64,000 nucleotides of DNA from Gammaproteobacteria bacterium (GTDB lineage: Bacteria > Pseudomonadota > Gammaproteobacteria > Enterobacterales > Kangiellaceae): the NCBI GenBank assembly GCA_013373375.1, contig JABXHY010000005.1:124001-188000 (forward strand). The letters run 5' to 3'. This document shows, piece by piece, positions 16,088 through 32,355 of this stretch. The position numbers were made by a program, and so were the translations under genes. The notes beneath the pieces were generated by a model, which saw nothing but the letters and a program-made list of their open reading frames with translations, was not told the DNA's origin and did not search any database. Positions within the stretch are counted from its first letter, which is position 1, and the number at the start of each line of letters is the position of its first letter.

Positions 16088-16729
16088 TTACGACCATTGG
16101 TACCACTGTTTAAGTTGTCCGATCAATTGATCTAGACCTGTTTTCTTAAGTGCAGAAAAAGCTTGAATGCTGCTATTAGGGTTAATTTCCTGCATCTGCT
16201 TTTTAACTTTCAATAATGTATTTTTCACGGCGCCCTGCTTGAGTTTATCGGATTTACTCAATAAAACATGCGTAGGAATTTGTTCTTCTGCTGCCCACAT
16301 CAACATTTGCAAATCAACTTCTTTCAAAGGATGCCGAATGTCCGTGAGCACAACCAAGCCCTTCAGACATTCACGACTTTGCAAATAATGGCTTAACGTT
16401 GCTTGCCAGCGCTCTTTGATGTCGATAGAGACTTTTGCAAATCCATATCCAGGCAAATCGACTAGTCGTCTCTCATCGTCAAGCCGGAACAAATTGATTA
16501 GTTGAGTGCGGCCTGGTGTTTTACTGGTTCGAGCAAGTGCTTTTTGTTCGCATAATACATTTAAGGCACTGGACTTTCCGGCATTTGAACGGCCAGCAAA
16601 CGCGACTTCCATCCCATTATCGGGCGGTAACTGCACCAATTCCGCGGCACCCATGATGTAGCTGGCTTGGCGAAAAGGATTCACTTTTGTTTCTGTCGCT
16701 TTTTTTTCAGAATCATTCGAGGCAGGCAT
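16088..16729 (-). CDS. engB: Ribosome biogenesis GTP-binding protein
   Basis: EngB (YihA/YsxC) is an essential GTPase for assembly of the large ribosomal subunit. The 213-residue product shows GRSNAGKSS (G1, residues 46-54), GRTQLINLF (G2), DLPGYG (G3) and LLSKSDK (G4). Divergent placement from cytochrome c4 is a conserved gammaproteobacterial arrangement. Confidence 0.96.
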   Translation of the reverse strand: MPASNDSEKKATETKVNPFRQASYIMGAAELVQLPPDNGMEVAFAGRSNAGKSSALNVLCEQKALARTSKTPGRTQLINLFRLDDERRLVDLPGYGFAKVSIDIKERWQATLSHYLQSRECLKGLVVLTDIRHPLKEVDLQMLMWAAEEQIPTHVLLSKSDKLKQGAVKNTLLKVKKQMQEINPNSSIQAFSALKKTGLDQLIGQLKQWYQWS

Positions 16730-24799: not shown

Positions 24800-25402
24800 A
24801 TGGTTAAAATTTATGGAATGGCGCAATCAGGTAATTGTTACAAATTACAATTGTTACTTTCATTCTTACAGCAGAAATATGAGTGGCAAGATATCGATAT
24901 CTTAAGTGGTGAGACGCAAACTCCAGAGTTCTTAAAAAGGAATCCTGCAGGTAAAGTCCCTTTGCTTGAAATAGAGAGTAATACGTTTTTACCGGAATCC
25001 AATGCAGCACTTTTTTATCTGGCAAATGAATCAACATTCTGGCCAAGTGATCCTCTGCAACAAGCAAACGTTCTGCGCTGGATGTTCTTCGAGCAATATT
25101 CACATGAACCATACATTGCCGTCGCACGATTCATCAAACGATTTTTACCGAAAGATCATCCGAGACATTCAGAGTTACCTGAGTTGCATCAAAAAGGAAG
25201 CACTGCACTTAAACTAATGAATCAACATCTAGCGGATAATGTTTGGTTCGTTGGAGATACTATATCGATAGCGGATATAGCTCTATTTGCCTACACGCAC
25301 GTCGCGGCAGAAGGTGGCTTTGAACTATCTCAATATCTCAATATTAAAAACTGGATCTCGCAAGTACAACAACAACCCCACTATACGCCAATGGTGCTCT
25401 AA
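24800..25402 (+). CDS. Glutathione S-transferase family protein
   Basis: A 200-residue GST-like protein: thioredoxin-fold N-terminal domain with NPAGKVPLLEI (cis-Pro) and LPESNAALFYLA (the usual E-S glutathione-binding pair), and an all-helical C-terminal domain with SIADIALFAYTH, the conserved N-capping aspartate. The active-site region reads AQSGNCYKL, so it may use Ser or Cys chemistry. The substrate is not predictable. It is coupled to the upstream MFS gene. Confidence 0.92.
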   Translation: MVKIYGMAQSGNCYKLQLLLSFLQQKYEWQDIDILSGETQTPEFLKRNPAGKVPLLEIESNTFLPESNAALFYLANESTFWPSDPLQQANVLRWMFFEQYSHEPYIAVARFIKRFLPKDHPRHSELPELHQKGSTALKLMNQHLADNVWFVGDTISIADIALFAYTHVAAEGGFELSQYLNIKNWISQVQQQPHYTPMVL

Positions 25403-25443: not shown

Positions 25444-25562
25444 GAATAAAAGAATGCCTCCAAACGCAGAACGCTGGAGGCAATAGAGCTCGACTTGGGG
25501 TTACCGAGCTCAAGTTCCCGCTATGAAGGAGGGTAAGCGGGGGATGCCATCATTGGCTTCCA
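25444..25562 (-). ncRNA. Candidate structured small RNA with a CU-rich anti-SD loop
   Basis: The 325-base gap between GST and the GGDEF-EAL gene holds four consecutive stems. Read on the minus strand: a short GCCA/TGGC hairpin; CCCGC/GCGGG closing a 15-base loop that contains ACCCTCCTTCAT (25522-25536); a 7-bp GAGCTCG/CGAGCTC hairpin (25486-25511) with an ACCCC loop; then TGCCTCCA/TGGAGGCA (25455-25482) followed by TTCTTTTATT, a good intrinsic terminator. The CU-rich loop is complementary to a Shine-Dalgarno sequence, as in some trans-acting sRNAs. The upstream promoter is weak (ATTTTG, 17 bases, TATATG at best), so it could instead be the processed 3' end of the GGDEF-EAL message. The plus strand has no U-tract. 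Confidence 0.45.
25455..25482 (-). terminator. Terminator hairpin of the sRNA candidate
   Basis: An 8-bp stem TGCCTCCA (25455-25462) with TGGAGGCA (25475-25482) and a 12-base loop. On the minus strand it is followed by TTCTTTTATT. It would end either an independent sRNA or the GGDEF-EAL transcript. Confidence 0.65.
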
Positions 25563-25666
25563 TATATTAAGACGTCAATTCTGCAAAATGGTTGCAAAAC
25601 AAGATGTAAAAAAATGTTAGAAAATTAAACTTATTACGACGGGCTGTTTTTCGAGTGAGCATATTG

Positions 25667-25718
25667 CCTTTCGGTATGGCCTTTCGGTGGATGGTCTTTC
25701 GGTAGATGGTCTTACGGC
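25667..25718. repeat. Four degenerate 13-15-bp tandem repeats
   Basis: CCTTTCGGT occurs at 25667 and 25680, then TCTTTCGGT at 25695 and TCTTACGGC at 25710, each with a GGAT/AGAT-like linker, giving spacings of 13, 15 and 15 bases. The array begins just past the GGDEF-EAL stop (25728) and, on the minus strand, continues its reading frame as RPSTE units. Confidence 0.75.
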
Positions 25719-25727
25719 GAATTCCTG

Positions 25728-28700
25728 CTAAGACTTGTTATTCGCTAACTTATAAAAAACGTCGGACTCGACTGCAGGACTGAACAAAAAGCCTTGAAAG
25801 GTATCACAATTAAACTGTTTTAATATATCGAACTGCTCTTCTAGTTCAACACCTTCAGCTGTTACATTTATGTCTAAGCTATGTGCAAGTTCAATAATGC
25901 AGCGAACGATGTTGCGATCTTTCTCCGATATATGAATATCTTTCACAAAAGAACGGTCGATCTTTAATGTATCAATTGGGAGTTGCTTTAGATAGTTCAA
26001 AGACGAATAGCCGGTACCAAAATCATCAAGCGCTAAATGATACCCTTCTTGCTTGATACGATTCATAGTCAAGCGAGCCTTATCCACATGCTTTAATAAA
26101 TCCGTTTCTGTTACCTCAATTTTAATATGCTCAGTCGGAATATTATAAATTTTCCTATAGTGAGCAAGGGTATCAAGAAACTCTTTGGTATTAATGAACA
26201 TCCGAGCTGAGATGTTTATCGCAATCATTAAACCAAATGCACTGGTGTCCCGCCAATATGATACCTGCTGAAATACTTTTTTTATTGCAAGTTTATCAAT
26301 TCTCTCAATAAGTCCAGATGATTCAGCAATAGGAATAAATTCACTGGGTTGCAGGTTCTGACTGTCTTTTTTCGGCCAACGGATCAAAGCCTCTGCACCA
26401 CTGATGGATTTTTGTTTGACATCTAGTACCGGCTGATAATGAAAAGTAAAAATATCATTATCAATAGCATCGATAATTGCCTGCTCTGTTTTAAATCGAG
26501 TTGTCATATGAGAGTTCATATGCTCTTCAAAAAATCGATAGCTATTCTTACCTTGCGACTTAGCGACACTTAGTGCGAGACCAGATTTTTTAATTAGTTC
26601 ACTCGCGCTAGTGGCATCTTGCGGATAAGTTGACACACCAATGCAACAGGTAAGTTTAAAGGTGTGTTCGTGGATATAAAATGGATTATCCAATAATTTT
26701 CCAACTCGAGACATCATATTTTGGGCATCTATATCGGGTTGCGAAGATTGTATGTATATAATAAATTCATCACTGCCAGCTCGACAAATTACTTCATTGT
26801 TCTGCGCAATCTCTAATAGTTTTTCGGCGAAATGCTTTAAAACCTTGTCACCTATAGAGTGGTCAAAAGAGTCATTAATTTTTTTAAATCCATCCAGATT
26901 GATATGCAATACTGCTATACCTATTTTAAGGCGATTAGCTTGAGAACAAGCATTATCTAACAACTCAATGAACAAGCTTCTATTTGGAAGAAGAGTAAGG
27001 TTATCATGCGTTGTTAAGTGCTCCATTGTTTCCTGGTTTCGTTTGTCTAAACTTAGATCTCTAAAAAACACCAAGTACTGTTCTATTTCGTCATTTAAGT
27101 TTTTAATTGCTCTTATTTCAAGTTTTATCGGATAAACATCGCCATTAGCACGCTGATCATAAGATTCCCCTTGCCATACACTATTTTCTTTAGCTAACGC
27201 TACCAAACGTTCAGTTAGATATTCATCTTGCCCTTTCGAATCACAAAATAAATAGGTCTTATCTTTTACATCTTCGGCTTTTTTATTAGTACAATTGAAA
27301 AATTCAGAATTAACCTCACGGACTCTAAACTGACTATCCGTGACGAATACTGCATCAGATGTATTTTCAAACGCTGTTGCTAATAACAATAATTGATTTT
27401 CTCTTTCTGCTATTTCTTTGTTATGCAGTCTTAACTGTTTTGTTTCGCGTCTTGCACCTGTTCTTAATATAAACAAAACCACGATTAACGATATGCTGAT
27501 GCATATATAGAGTAGAAAAATATATCGCTCTTTGATTGAACGAGTCTTCTCTTGTTCAAGTAGGTTTTTGCTTCTTAATTGTTTAATCGAGTTTTCTTTT
27601 TCAAGTAAGTTGTATTTGGCTTCTAGTGATTCAATAGCACTTGCTCTTTCAGCATTATAAACTTCGCGAGTTTTAAAATATGTTTTAGCTAGGTAATCAT
27701 AAGCTTTTTTATAATCATCTAATTGGGCATAGGCTTGGTGAAGCTGATTTAATATTTGGTTTGCTTCATAATCTAGATTTTTGCTTTCAAAAAACTCAAG
27801 CGCCTCGATCAATATTGGAATAGATTTATCTGGATGGCCTTGTTTTATTAAAATATTACCTTTTATCGCATAGGTATAATACATATTATCTTTATCGCCA
27901 TACTCACGCATTAAATCAATTGCTCTCTTAGCAGACTCAAGCGCTTTATCAAACTCCTTTTGTCTCAAATAGACCAGCGAGACATTCAAATAAATGCTTC
28001 CTTCGTATTCTGGATAATAAGATAAATAACGGTATTCCATAAGCTCTTGATATGACTCAATTGCTTTCTCTAATTCATTTTGTTCCGCTAGTCGACCAGC
28101 CAGGTTTTGTAAATTTTCAAAATATAAGATACTGTCTTTGTAATTTTCCAACTGAGTTAAGTTTTCTTCTGTTATTTTCGCACCAACATCTACATCCCGT
28201 TGTTTGGCATAAACTCGAACCAAAAAAGTTTTAAGTCTTATTATTTCCTCCAAATTTGCAGTTTGCTGGTAAATGGATATACCCAATAGCAATAATTGTT
28301 GAGCCTTTTCGTACTGGCCAAGATGATCGTATAACCTGCCCAGTATTCCAGTAGAGTGAGCTAAGTCTTCTCTCGAGATATTGCCATAAAATTTTTCAAC
28401 TTGCGCAGGTGGATTTGCTGACGCGATCTTAGCCGAATCAAGCCCCAATAGCCTTTCTATTCCTTCACTTAATGCCGCCGCTTCATCGTATTCACTTTTT
28501 GCCAATAAGTATTCCAGTTCTAATAGCTGAGAAAAAAGTAATATACGAGACTTATTAATCTCTGAATAAAGATTATTAAGTGCTGTAATGCGGCTCTGAA
28601 ATGGTTCCATTTCAAGTCGATTCAGCTCAATTCTGCCGAGCAAATAGTGTGCTTGCGCAAGACCATCTAAATTGTTAACTGATGAGGAATTCCGCTCCAG

Positions 28701-28964
28701 CTCCTTTGCGAAGCTCTCTTTCTCAACTGGTGACAAGAAAACGTTGTCGTGGGTCGATTGAGTGCTTAATTCAGTGTCTAACCGCTGCTCAGAAGTAAGG
28801 GCATAAACATTATTCCCGGTAAAAGACATTCCTACTAGTGTCGCGAAGAGGAACGCCAAACCATATTTAAACCGTCCTGCGCTATTGAACAGAATACAGT
28901 TCAAGTCCACAAAGAAGCGGAGCGCTGAAAACTGCTTAGCAAAAAACCTCAGACAATTCGGCAT
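25728..28964 (-). CDS. TPR-PAS-GGDEF-EAL membrane sensor, likely c-di-GMP phosphodiesterase
   Basis: 1078 residues. A signal anchor (about 33-52) precedes a helical TPR-like region (about 75-450), presumed periplasmic, then a transmembrane helix (about 480-500), PAS (about 525-640), GGDEF (about 655-815) and EAL (about 825-1075). The GGDEF motif is AGSDEF rather than GG[DE]EF, so cyclase activity is doubtful. The EAL part keeps EALIRW, DDFGTGYSS and TAEGVE, so it should hydrolyse c-di-GMP. TPR and PAS suggest sensing outside and inside. Monocistronic; its stop is a TAG beside the tandem repeats. Confidence 0.9.
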   Translation of the reverse strand: MPNCLRFFAKQFSALRFFVDLNCILFNSAGRFKYGLAFLFATLVGMSFTGNNVYALTSEQRLDTELSTQSTHDNVFLSPVEKESFAKELERNSSSVNNLDGLAQAHYLLGRIELNRLEMEPFQSRITALNNLYSEINKSRILLFSQLLELEYLLAKSEYDEAAALSEGIERLLGLDSAKIASANPPAQVEKFYGNISREDLAHSTGILGRLYDHLGQYEKAQQLLLLGISIYQQTANLEEIIRLKTFLVRVYAKQRDVDVGAKITEENLTQLENYKDSILYFENLQNLAGRLAEQNELEKAIESYQELMEYRYLSYYPEYEGSIYLNVSLVYLRQKEFDKALESAKRAIDLMREYGDKDNMYYTYAIKGNILIKQGHPDKSIPILIEALEFFESKNLDYEANQILNQLHQAYAQLDDYKKAYDYLAKTYFKTREVYNAERASAIESLEAKYNLLEKENSIKQLRSKNLLEQEKTRSIKERYIFLLYICISISLIVVLFILRTGARRETKQLRLHNKEIAERENQLLLLATAFENTSDAVFVTDSQFRVREVNSEFFNCTNKKAEDVKDKTYLFCDSKGQDEYLTERLVALAKENSVWQGESYDQRANGDVYPIKLEIRAIKNLNDEIEQYLVFFRDLSLDKRNQETMEHLTTHDNLTLLPNRSLFIELLDNACSQANRLKIGIAVLHINLDGFKKINDSFDHSIGDKVLKHFAEKLLEIAQNNEVICRAGSDEFIIYIQSSQPDIDAQNMMSRVGKLLDNPFYIHEHTFKLTCCIGVSTYPQDATSASELIKKSGLALSVAKSQGKNSYRFFEEHMNSHMTTRFKTEQAIIDAIDNDIFTFHYQPVLDVKQKSISGAEALIRWPKKDSQNLQPSEFIPIAESSGLIERIDKLAIKKVFQQVSYWRDTSAFGLMIAINISARMFINTKEFLDTLAHYRKIYNIPTEHIKIEVTETDLLKHVDKARLTMNRIKQEGYHLALDDFGTGYSSLNYLKQLPIDTLKIDRSFVKDIHISEKDRNIVRCIIELAHSLDINVTAEGVELEEQFDILKQFNCDTFQGFLFSPAVESDVFYKLANNKS

Positions 28965-29232: not shown

Positions 29233-29553
29233 TTAACTTTCCATATTGTTTTGAGGTTGAACCACAGGGGGCCACCGAACTGAAAAAGGATTACATGCAC
29301 CAGATGTTAGTTCACTGACTTCAACCTGAATTTTTTCACCTAACCGAAATCCACGATTTCGTTTTGGTATTCTAAAATAATCATCGCCTGGCAAAGTCGC
29401 CACCTGCACTTCAATTGCATTTTCATTGATTGCCGTTACTGTTGCTTCGGCTAACCGAGTTGAATATTCGCAGGAGCCACCAACGGGTTGCGGTATTACA
29501 CCGCAACCTGATATCAACAAGGTTAAACACATCGTAAAAGCAATTTTAAACAT
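29233..29553 (-). CDS. Small predicted lipoprotein downstream of polA
   Basis: 106 residues with a lipoprotein signal: hydrophobic stretch then LISGC, the lipidated cysteine at residue 17. The mature part has short beta-prone segments (TVTAINENAIEVQVATL, RGFRLGEKIQVEVSEL) and further cysteines at about C28 and C87. The sequence of an inner-membrane retention Asp at +2 is absent (Gly), so outer-membrane sorting is expected. Its ATG shares one base with the polA stop (TAATG), so it is translationally coupled to polA. I do not know the family. Confidence 0.75.
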   Translation of the reverse strand: MFKIAFTMCLTLLISGCGVIPQPVGGSCEYSTRLAEATVTAINENAIEVQVATLPGDDYFRIPKRNRGFRLGEKIQVEVSELTSGACNPFSVRWPPVVQPQNNMES

Positions 29554-32285
29554 TAATGCGCCTCGTCCCAGTTTTCACCAACGCCAGTTTCAACTAATAA
29601 AGGTACTGAAAGTTCGCTGGCGTTTTGCATTATATCTGTAATTTTTGTAATGCATGCCTCAACTTCTGACTCTGCAACTTCAAAAACCAGTTCATCATGC
29701 ACCTGCATGATCATCTGACATTTCGGATTTTCATTTGTCGTCCACTCATCAACTTTGAGCATAGCCAATTTTATAATGTCTGCAGCGCTACCTTGCATTG
29801 GCGCATTGATAGCTGTGCGTTCTGCTGCCTTTCGGCGCATGCCATTACTCGCATTGATTTCAGGTAAGTACAATCGACGACCGTATAAGGTTTCGACATA
29901 ACCTTTTTCTTTTGCCTTTTCTTTGGTTTCTTCCATGTAAGCCTCGACCCCAGGATAGCGCGCGAAATAAGTGTCGATATAGTGTTGCGCCTCGTCACGC
30001 CCCACACCAATTTGTTTCGCTAATCCAAAAGCCGACATACCGTAAATAAGTCCAAAGTTAATCGCTTTCGCACTTCGCCGTTGTTCAGTTGTAACCTTAG
30101 TGGCATTTACAGCAAACACTTCAGCGGCAGTTGCGGTATGAATGTCCTGGCCTTCAGCGAATGCAGTAAGTAGCCCGTCATCTTGAGACAAATGCGCCAT
30201 AATTCTCAGTTCAATTTGCGAGTAATCGGCTGCGACTATTTTATAACCTTTAGGCGCAATAAACGCTTGGCGAATGCTGCGCCCAGCTTCATTTTTAATG
30301 GGTATATTTTGCAAGTTAGGTTCAGTCGAAGACAACCGTCCAGTCGCAGCAACAGCTTGGTGGTAAGATGTATGCAATCGGCGAGAGTTAGCGTTGATCA
30401 TTTCAGGAAGTTTATCCGTATAGGTAGATTTGAGTTTCGATAATCCTCGGTACTCTAAAATAACCTTTGGCAACGGATAATCCAATGCGAGTTCCTGCAA
30501 AACATCTTCTGCCGTTGACGGCTGTTTTTTAGGCGTCTTTTTAATAACTGGTAATTCTAACTTTTCAAAAAGAATACGTTGTAATTGTTTTGGAGAACCT
30601 AAGTTAAACTCTTCCTCAGCAAGTTCGAAAGCTTTTTCCTGCAGTTCATTCATGCGAACAGCAAACTCTTGGCTTTTTTGTCGCAATAAGTCGGTATTAA
30701 TTAAGACACCGTGACGTTCCACTTTGGATAGAACAGATAACAGCGGCATTTCAATGTGTTCGAAAACACCTTTCAATGTTTCCTGCGATTCGAGTTTTGG
30801 CCAAATTTTTTGGTGTAATTGCAAAGTAATATCAGCATCTTCCGCAGCATACTCGGCAGCTTTTTCAACCTCAACCTGATTAAAAGTAACTTGCTTAGCG
30901 CCTTTACCAGCGACGTCTTCATAATGAATAGTATCGCGGCCTAAATATTTGAGTGCCAATGAATTCATGTCGTGACGTGTCGCTACACTATTTAAAGTGT
31001 AAGATTCCAACATAGTATCGAAAGCAATGCCTCGAAGAGTAATATCATAGCGAGCTAAAACACTGGCGTCATATTTTAAGTTTTGGCCAACTTTTTTGTG
31101 CTCCTCGGATTCTAATATCGGCTTCAACTTGTCCAACACCCAGTTCCTATCGAGTTGATCAGGAGCGTCCAGATAGTCATGAGTTAAAGGAACATAAGCT
31201 GCCTTACCAGACTCCACTGCGAATGAAATACCAACCAAGTCAGCTTCCATATAATTCAAGCTTGTGGTTTCGGTATCAAACGCAAATAAGTCAGCCGAAG
31301 TTAATTTATCGAGCCATTGATCAAACTGTTGCTCGGTTAATACTGTATCGTACTCTGTTGATTGTTCGGTCGACATATTACTATCGACGACTTCGCTTGG
31401 CTCATTGGCTTGTTGAGAAATTTCATGCAACCAAGATTTAAATTCAAACTTTGTAAATAACTCGGAAAGTTTTGAATTGTCTGGATGTCCGTTTTCGATA
31501 TCCGACAAAGTAAACGGTAACTCTACGTCGGTTTTGATGGTCGCTAGCTCGTGTGACAAATACGCCATGTCTTTATTTTCGAGCAACTTTTCAGGCATCT
31601 TTTTGGCTCCCCTAAATGAAAGCTCTCGAATCGACTCCAGATTATTGTAAATCTCATCAAGACCGCCGACATTTTGCAGCAGCGCAACTGCAGTTTTTTC
31701 ACCAACGCCTGCAACACCCGGAATATTATCTGAAGAGTCACCCATCAATGCTAGATAATCGATAAAGTGCTGCGAGGAAAAGCCATACTTTTCCTCAACG
31801 CCAGACTCATCAAGAATTGTATTGGTCATGGTGTTAATCAGAGTCACATGCGGGCTCACCAACTGGGCCATATCTTTGTCTCCAGTTGAAATGAGAGTAT
31901 CTATACCTTGCTCAGTTGCCTCTTTTGCCAAAGTTCCAATCACATCGTCCGCTTCAACATTGTCAATAACCAGCATGGGAAGTCCCATTGCTTCGATAAT
32001 TTGGTGAATTGGTTCAATTTGCACACGAAGATCGTCTGGCATAGGCGGGCGATGCGCCTTGTATTCAGGATAAATGTCGTTTCGAAACGTTTTACCTTTT
32101 GCATCGAACACCACAATAATTTTCGACTCTGGGTATTCTTTTAGATGATTGCGGATCATTGAAATCACGCCACGTATTGCATTAGTAGGAAAACCATCCC
32201 CAGTACTCAAATGACGAATAGCATGAAACGCGCGGAACAAATAGGATGAACCATCAACTAAAATGACCGGTTTTTTCGACGGCAT
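29553..32285 (-). CDS. polA: DNA polymerase I
   Basis: Fills gaps and removes RNA primers in replication and repair. The 910-residue protein (E. coli 928) has all three parts: 5'-nuclease domain (PVILVDGSSYLFRAFHA, D.K.FRNDIYPEYKAHR, ADDVIGTLA, GDKDMAQL), 3'-5' exonuclease with an intact FAFDTETTSLNY, and polymerase with ADYSQIELRIMAHLS, RSAKAINFGLIYGMSA and QVHDELVFEV. I start it at the ATG at 32285 with AGGA upstream; an in-frame start at 32318 lacks support. It lies beside a DnaA-box cluster. Confidence 0.98.
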   Translation of the reverse strand: MPSKKPVILVDGSSYLFRAFHAIRHLSTGDGFPTNAIRGVISMIRNHLKEYPESKIIVVFDAKGKTFRNDIYPEYKAHRPPMPDDLRVQIEPIHQIIEAMGLPMLVIDNVEADDVIGTLAKEATEQGIDTLISTGDKDMAQLVSPHVTLINTMTNTILDESGVEEKYGFSSQHFIDYLALMGDSSDNIPGVAGVGEKTAVALLQNVGGLDEIYNNLESIRELSFRGAKKMPEKLLENKDMAYLSHELATIKTDVELPFTLSDIENGHPDNSKLSELFTKFEFKSWLHEISQQANEPSEVVDSNMSTEQSTEYDTVLTEQQFDQWLDKLTSADLFAFDTETTSLNYMEADLVGISFAVESGKAAYVPLTHDYLDAPDQLDRNWVLDKLKPILESEEHKKVGQNLKYDASVLARYDITLRGIAFDTMLESYTLNSVATRHDMNSLALKYLGRDTIHYEDVAGKGAKQVTFNQVEVEKAAEYAAEDADITLQLHQKIWPKLESQETLKGVFEHIEMPLLSVLSKVERHGVLINTDLLRQKSQEFAVRMNELQEKAFELAEEEFNLGSPKQLQRILFEKLELPVIKKTPKKQPSTAEDVLQELALDYPLPKVILEYRGLSKLKSTYTDKLPEMINANSRRLHTSYHQAVAATGRLSSTEPNLQNIPIKNEAGRSIRQAFIAPKGYKIVAADYSQIELRIMAHLSQDDGLLTAFAEGQDIHTATAAEVFAVNATKVTTEQRRSAKAINFGLIYGMSAFGLAKQIGVGRDEAQHYIDTYFARYPGVEAYMEETKEKAKEKGYVETLYGRRLYLPEINASNGMRRKAAERTAINAPMQGSAADIIKLAMLKVDEWTTNENPKCQMIMQVHDELVFEVAESEVEACITKITDIMQNASELSVPLLVETGVGENWDEAH

Positions 32286-32308
32286 AATGTATTTCCTGAC
32301 AATATAAA

Positions 32309-32355
32309 TTCGGCACATTGTACCGATTTATGCCGAACATGCGAGAGAATATCAA
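32309..32355 (-). promoter_or_regulatory. polA: Candidate polA promoter and overlapping dyad
   Basis: On the minus strand TTGATA (32350-32355) and CATAAA (32327-32332) are 17 bases apart, about 45 bases from the polA ATG. TTCGGCA (32309-32315) and TGCCGAA (32331-32337) form a 7-bp inverted repeat that overlaps the -10 and so could be an operator. Both are sequence matches only. Confidence 0.35.

Follow-up and report, generated by a model that had tools for sequence, protein, structure and literature searches.

The minus strand at 25444-25562 of the DNA analysed here (the window, a stretch of 64,000 nucleotides from a gammaproteobacterium of the Kangiellaceae) probably encodes an independently transcribed, trans-acting small RNA (sRNA) with C-rich loops that would be induced by sigmaE. 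Within a family of gammaproteobacterial sRNAs that resides in the gap between polA and engB, it would represent the branch of the Pleionea clade. The RNA is conserved in relatives, its structure covaries, its type of promoter is enriched in the family, and its locus is syntenic.

Structure, promoter and locus of the window RNA

The 119-nt RNA folds in prediction into four hairpins with a minimum free energy of -47.4 kcal/mol and a z-score of -4.67, and none of 200 dinucleotide shuffles was as stable. A 141-nt version gave a z-score of -4.98. These results confirmed a preliminary description of the region, which had proposed four stems in about 120 bases of the minus strand. The plus strand of 25444-25562 likewise folds well (z -3.89), as is expected because the stems are palindromic. 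The transcript would be about 115-119 nt long, with a start near 25561, as judged from the promoter boxes, and an end in the U-rich tail.

All parts of the RNA lie on the minus strand. Hairpin 1 (25542-25561), indicated by the predicted fold and by covariation, consists of GCCA AUGA UGGC and outer pairs. Hairpin 2 (25517-25541) has a CCCGC/GCGGG stem, corresponds to the first hairpin of the Rfam anti-hemB RNA, and bears the CU-rich anti-Shine-Dalgarno (anti-SD) loop that had been described at the outset; the motif in this loop, ACCCUCCUUC (25534-25525), is complementary to GAAGGAGGGU. Hairpin 3 (25486-25511) presents the loop motif CCCCAAG (25500-25494), which is invariant in the five genomes aligned. 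Hairpin 4, composed of GCCUCCA..UGGAGGC and followed by AUUCUUUUAUU (25482-25444), is together with its U-rich tail a probable intrinsic terminator. The GC-rich 3' hairpin and U-tract of the preliminary description are present, but a strict terminator scan did not list them, probably because the scan allows at most 8 enclosed bases and the uninterrupted stem has 12 inside it.

A DNA search of the own genome and 60 relatives identified the sRNA in four further genomes. Of the four genomes of the same genus, three carry it, and the fourth carrier comes from another genus in the same bacterial family. The remaining same-genus genome (G003), listed as 100% complete, gave no DNA match to the sRNA. 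Promoter and RNA align across all five genomes, the own one included, and common to them are a similar A/T tract, the pattern GNAAC-N16-CGTCTTA, and a 3' hairpin with a T-rich tail; ACCCTCCTTC and CCCCAAG are invariant. All five RNAs have fold z-scores between -4.7 and -5.8, and in 10 of the 32 predicted pairs of the five-sequence alignment a kept pair is altered on both sides. The preliminary description, which proposed a trans-acting sRNA with an anti-SD loop and an intrinsic terminator, had named a lack of loop or compensatory-pair conservation in relatives as grounds against itself. The loop is invariant in the five genomes and the stems covary, which supports the proposal.

The same alignment bears on the idea that the locus is a gene for a small protein, as in Spot 42 (spfP). 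Short open frames do occur in all five genomes. However, their frame, length and residues differ from one genome to another, and the substitutions follow the base pairs, which makes this idea extremely unlikely. Peptide coding was rejected, as no frame is common to the five.

Upstream of the RNA, on the same strand, lie a -10-type box CGTCTTA (25568-25574), a -35-type box GCAAC (25591-25595), and an A/T-tract element AACATTTTTTTACAT (25604-25618). The A/T tract is similar in the relatives and may play the role of an UP element, the -35-type box reads GNAAC in all five genomes, and the -10-type box stands 16 nt from the AAC in all five. The arrangement GNAAC-N16-CGTCTTA (5/5 genomes) is of the ECF/sigmaE type, and the boxes with their spacing form what we take to be a promoter of the sigmaE/AlgU type. 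In the own genome, a narrower promoter pattern occurred at four places, the sRNA and three others, and likewise at four in a reversed control; the motif is therefore informative through its conservation and position rather than by itself. The genome carries a true rpoE (316 bits), and none of the scanned boxes was found upstream of rpoE at its locus (L020). Sequence features of this kind suggest that sigmaE would control the window RNA. A sigma70 promoter was considered and rejected: the only candidate, TTGACG/AATGAT, is weak, it overlaps the start, and it is not kept in the alignment of relatives.

As the preliminary description correctly stated, the RNA lies between two convergent genes. One is a GST-family ORF on the plus strand (24800-25402), and the other is a TPR-PAS-GGDEF-EAL ORF on the minus strand (25728-28964), which separates the sRNA from the polA side and is found there in this genome only among the five compared. 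Short direct repeats (CTTTCGGT..ATGG type) were seen by eye at 25667-25718, in the stretch that runs from the stop codon of the GGDEF-EAL gene to the promoter of the sRNA. The probable ancestral neighbour polA (29553-32318, minus strand, named by NCBIfam) is separated from the sRNA by two ORFs, including the GGDEF-EAL gene, and engB/yihA (16088-16729, minus strand; TIGR03598, 240.7 bits), the probable ancestral neighbour on the other side, is about 9 kb away. The window copy is displaced in this sense. Among the relatives, the gene order is engB-sRNA-polA in G009, the sRNA adjoins polA in G001, and one small ORF stands between them in G004; in G002, the 10 kb fetched to each side of the sRNA did not contain polA. 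The order polA-spf-yihA in E. coli marks the same locus as that of the G009 sRNA, and the same order is given for the neighbours of Spot 42 (PMC3295665).

The window RNA looks like an independent gene, because the RNA and its ECF/sigmaE-type promoter are kept in four relatives while the neighbouring genes change. The preliminary description had offered an independent gene and a 3'-UTR-derived RNA as two choices; the former is now favoured over origin from the GGDEF-EAL gene, since promoter-like boxes of its own are conserved with the RNA and the sRNA flanks of the four relatives showed no homologue of the GGDEF-EAL ORF. The RNA follows the GGDEF-EAL stop codon at a distance of about 170 nt on the same strand, a position that would suit a 3'-UTR-derived sRNA or a plain terminator of that gene. 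Nevertheless, promoter boxes and RNA are kept in relatives that have polA or another ORF upstream, and a lone terminator would not preserve three more hairpins, invariant loops and promoter boxes, so that such an origin seems distinctly improbable.

A family of C-loop RNAs at polA and engB

Two covariance models were used for genome-wide searches. The first, R1, was built from the five clade RNAs only and matched 38 of 369 genomes of the class at E<=0.01, representing 33 genera and including the own genome. The second, R2, was widened from 39 R1 matches and, at E<=1e-3, found the family in 194 of the 369 genomes, again including the own one, and in 145 of 272 sampled genera. The window RNA scores 97.5 bits against R2, of whose training set it is a member. 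Among the fetched R1 loci other than the own, 23 of 29 lay no more than about 1.5 kb from polA, engB or both, compared to 0 of 15 chance-level covariance model hits. The polA/engB position of the R2 family was checked for fetched loci.

An alignment (A5) of 84 copies, 80 of them distinct (four identical rows), obtained by searching 73 loci, was used to measure covariation; L077, L082, L089, L091, L094 and L098 were among those left out of this set of loci. For the 80 distinct copies, 93.4% of pair cells held standard pairs versus 65.0% after shuffling, and the covariation score was 0.716 versus 0.200, values that none of 500 shuffles reached in either case. Paired cells fell to 34-47% in slid controls. 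Changes on both sides were present in 31 of 32 pairs, a count that says little by itself because the shuffles were only slightly lower (mean 27.0; 2 of 500 reached 31). All of these structure counts lean towards structure because the alignments were fitted to it. Loop 2 contained CCC in 82 of the 84 aligned copies, and loops 2-4 are C-rich across the family (47-52% C). By its covariance model match, its four covarying hairpins and the locus of its clade in G009 and G001, the window RNA is a member of this family.

The promoter type is likewise shared. A sigmaE-like box, AAC[TC]-N15..17-GTC, was found in 58 of 81 family copies within 75 nt upstream plus 8 inside, whereas the mean was 1.5 of 81 for Markov-resampled upstream sequences and the rate was 3.8% for random pieces taken from these loci. 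The 81 copies comprised the 39 R1 matches and 42 of 48 further R2 matches, the six left out being duplicate places under second ids (L074, L079, L085, L103 and two in L101). The strict box was absent from the other 23 copies, including the top anti-hemB hit, L077.

Several loci hold more than one copy of the sRNA. Four tandem copies each occur in L059 and L066 and two each in L058/L101, L088, L082, L087 and L050, and a second, weaker copy is present in L057 and L133. In L059, L066, L058, L088, L082, L087 and L050, 15 of 18 copies have a sigmaE-like box of their own; L082 and L087 show no polA or engB within the fetched flank. At another locus, L043, the sRNA copy is preceded upstream by a match to the cspA thermoregulator (956-1396; 79.9 against a gathering score of 78).

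Relation to anti-hemB, sX13, ErsA and other named RNAs

At gathering scores, the window RNA belongs to no Rfam family. The preliminary description, which recognised no such family, was right at these thresholds and overlooked a homology to anti-hemB. In a permissive scan of 391 bases, anti-hemB (RF02837) was matched over its full length (positions 1-81) with 32.6 bits and an E-value of 5.5e-6, below its gathering score of 49.5. In the own genome the window RNA is the best RF02837 match, and the next has 22.8 bits; in the four relatives, no match at the orthologous sRNA was among the RF02837 matches listed. Anti-hemB, also called Burkholderia RNA 7 or ncS04, has a CCCGC-CCUCC-GCGGG hairpin like that of the window RNA. 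Its Rfam model differs in that it starts at hairpin 2 of the window RNA and lacks hairpin 1, and its loop is CCUCCCUGA. As ncS04 of B. cenocepacia, it is 105 nt long with a 3' end confirmed by RACE (PMC5688073). In the 369 class genomes, RF02837 matched 167 at E<=1e-3 and 20 above cut-off. R1 alone found 14 of the 20 above-cutoff loci at E<=0.01, and R2 found all 20; two of these, L079 and L085, had already served to train R2 under the ids L044 and L047. The homology of the window RNA to anti-hemB is direct.

The links to sX13 and ErsA rest on R2, because at E<=1 (26 loci) R1 matched neither ErsA nor the three above-cutoff sX13 loci. sX13 (RF02232, gathering score 50) had no match, either in the permissive scan of 391 bases or, at E<=1e-3, in the own genome. 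It is encoded beside polA, where the sRNA of G001 and G009 lies too, has a length of 115 nt, close to that predicted for the window RNA, responds to stress, and acts on mRNAs with G-rich motifs near the start through C-rich apical loops of the kind that the window RNA also has; it is described as three-stemmed and confined to the Xanthomonadaceae (PMC3771888). The promoters also differ, as the strict sigmaE-like box is absent from all three above-cutoff sX13 loci. RF02232 matched 15 class genomes at E<=1e-3, 3 of them above cut-off. R2 matched these three loci at 35-43 bits and, in total, 7 of the 8 RF02232 loci given to it out of 12 fetched (L118 was missed), and R1 matched one locus just under cut-off (L110, E 0.0068). 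This is a good link between sX13 and the family.

For ErsA (Pseudomon-1, RF01719, gathering score 50), the own genome has no match at the place of the sRNA. RF01719 matched 13 of the class genomes at E<=1e-3, one above cut-off. All 11 RF01719 loci given to R2 were matched at E<=0.0036 (11 of 12 fetched; L071 and L045 are one place), and the above-cutoff ErsA locus, which lies at polA with a sigmaE-like box, scored 31.1 bits (E 5.4e-5). Its genome (G221) is absent from the R2 genomes listed under stricter genome-scan filters, and loop 2 of ErsA is not C-rich in the R2 alignment. The link to ErsA is weak, and the weakest of the three. ErsA is a documented transcript of 132 nt that is reported to depend on sigma22/AlgU (PMC5819304, PMC7264166), to repress oprD translation with Hfq (PMC7264166) and to activate amrZ (PMC5819304). 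SPA0122, beside PA5492/engB, bears the note Spot42 (PMC3349714) and is presumably ErsA.

The resemblance to anti-hemB, sX13 and ErsA might instead be convergent, given that, to a covariance model, sRNAs with C-rich loops resemble terminators. RF02837 indeed produced many chance-level matches in each of six genomes and matched 3 of 14 control genomes at E<=1e-3, and a model with more sequences, R3, gave 19.7 bits to a terminator-like place in E. coli. The locus, however, is outside any model. Above-cutoff anti-hemB is at polA/engB in 15 of 20 genomes, and the RF01719 and RF02232 sets of 12 loci each are there in 11 and 9 cases; these proportions, like the 23 of 29 for R1, contrast with 0 of 15 for weak hits, and the sets share some genomes. 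The sigmaE-like box is also outside the models yet enriched, and the highest R2 score in 200 kb of E. coli was 17.5 bits. Convergence is therefore considered unlikely. Direct membership of the window RNA in RF02837, RF01719 or RF02232 is ruled out at curated thresholds; it is a variant of the polA-engB C-loop kind of sRNA that falls below threshold for all three.

Other named RNAs were compared. Spot 42 (RF00021, gathering score 80) shares the family's locus, polA-spf-yihA, and its best match in the own genome, at 22.6 bits, lies elsewhere than the sRNA. It was the best R2 match in the 200 kb of E. coli (17.5 bits, E 0.08), came second in R3 (15.9 bits, E 0.17) to the chance place at 19.7 bits, and was not listed by R1 at E<=1 (L138). 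Spot 42 as a homologue is thus unsupported. S17 and the 'toxic' or double-hairpin sRNAs of beta-proteobacteria (RF02278) similarly have C/U-rich unpaired regions complementary to ribosome-binding sites, but they have two hairpins instead of four and another locus, S17 being beside coq7 (PMC11722255, PMC5688073). The sole RF02278 match found was away from the place of the sRNA. In Alcanivorax, an intergenic sRNA beside a gene for a ribosome-biogenesis GTP-binding protein has been reported as conserved (PMC9788540). One family copy (L034, 1517-1617) matches the alpha-proteobacterial ar14 (RF02344) below threshold with 31.3 bits and an E-value of 0.052, a possible link to alpha-proteobacterial C-loop RNAs.

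Proposed mode of action and significance of the family

The features described above suggest how the window RNA may work. First, an ECF sigma factor of the RpoE type would transcribe it, most likely under envelope stress. Second, the transcript would fold into four hairpins and end at its own terminator. Third, the C-rich loops, ACCCUCCUUC and CCCCAAG, would pair with G-rich SD regions and thereby lower the translation of selected mRNAs. We infer both transcription in this organism and the targets.

Repression by the loops would be expected by analogy with sX13, a documented transcript for which C-rich loops and G-rich motifs near starts were both reported to be needed for repression, without Hfq (PMC3771888). 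Direct pairing is not fully proved for sX13 in the same account, as compensatory loop and target mutations did not restore regulation (PMC3771888).

For the window RNA, loop 2 was compared with 48 mechanically called ORF starts of the window (first ATG/GTG/TTG, some maybe wrong) and with the rpoE locus. The ribosome site of rpoE, a gene chosen by hand, gave -14.9 kcal/mol, versus a best value of -11.3 and a median of -5.15 for the 48 ORF starts. At the rpoE start (L020, about 1476-1490), the SD (AGAAGGAGG) is near-perfect and complementary to loop 2. Loop 2 is able to base-pair with the near-perfect SD GAAGGAGG, and in this way the RNA would mimic an anti-SD. Feedback of the window RNA on rpoE is a hypothesis modelled on this one hand-picked gene.

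Several multi-hairpin sRNAs titrate proteins. The window RNA might accordingly bind a CsrA-like protein or Hfq in place of pairing with mRNAs, and the tandem copies in some relatives would agree with such a role. However, loops 2-4 of the family are C-rich, and sX13, which has similar loops, represses mRNAs with G-rich motifs (PMC3771888); titration is considered very unlikely. The protein titration mentioned in the preliminary description found no support in its CsrA form, as C-rich loops without any GGA cap the hairpins on the RNA strand. Pairing with mRNAs remains the preferred mode of action.

A broader, speculative scenario, to which we assign a rather low probability, would place one sigmaE-driven sRNA that mimics ribosome sites in the ancestral gammaproteobacterial polA-engB gap. 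From it anti-hemB, sX13, ErsA and the window RNA would have descended, and Spot 42, and perhaps the alpha-proteobacterial polA C-loop RNAs, would be rewired descendants; in Pleionea, the RNA would cover the GAAGGAGG site of rpoE and close a feedback loop.

Locus, promoter type and covarying structure connect the family RNAs, and they appear to be old and widespread envelope-stress sRNAs at polA that have been catalogued under several unrelated names. In Rfam, sX13, ErsA and anti-hemB are separate, with the clan field empty. The authors of the sX13 study asked whether polA loci of other bacteria encode such RNAs (PMC3771888). Within the literature searched, to which most subscription journals did not belong, ErsA and sX13 were not treated together and no paper joined more than one of RF02837, RF02232 and RF01719. 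If the family is as proposed, one model could replace or join the three Rfam families, and results on targets and loop mutants would become comparable across genera. Furthermore, envelope stress in bacteria other than the enterics would have an RNA arm in common.
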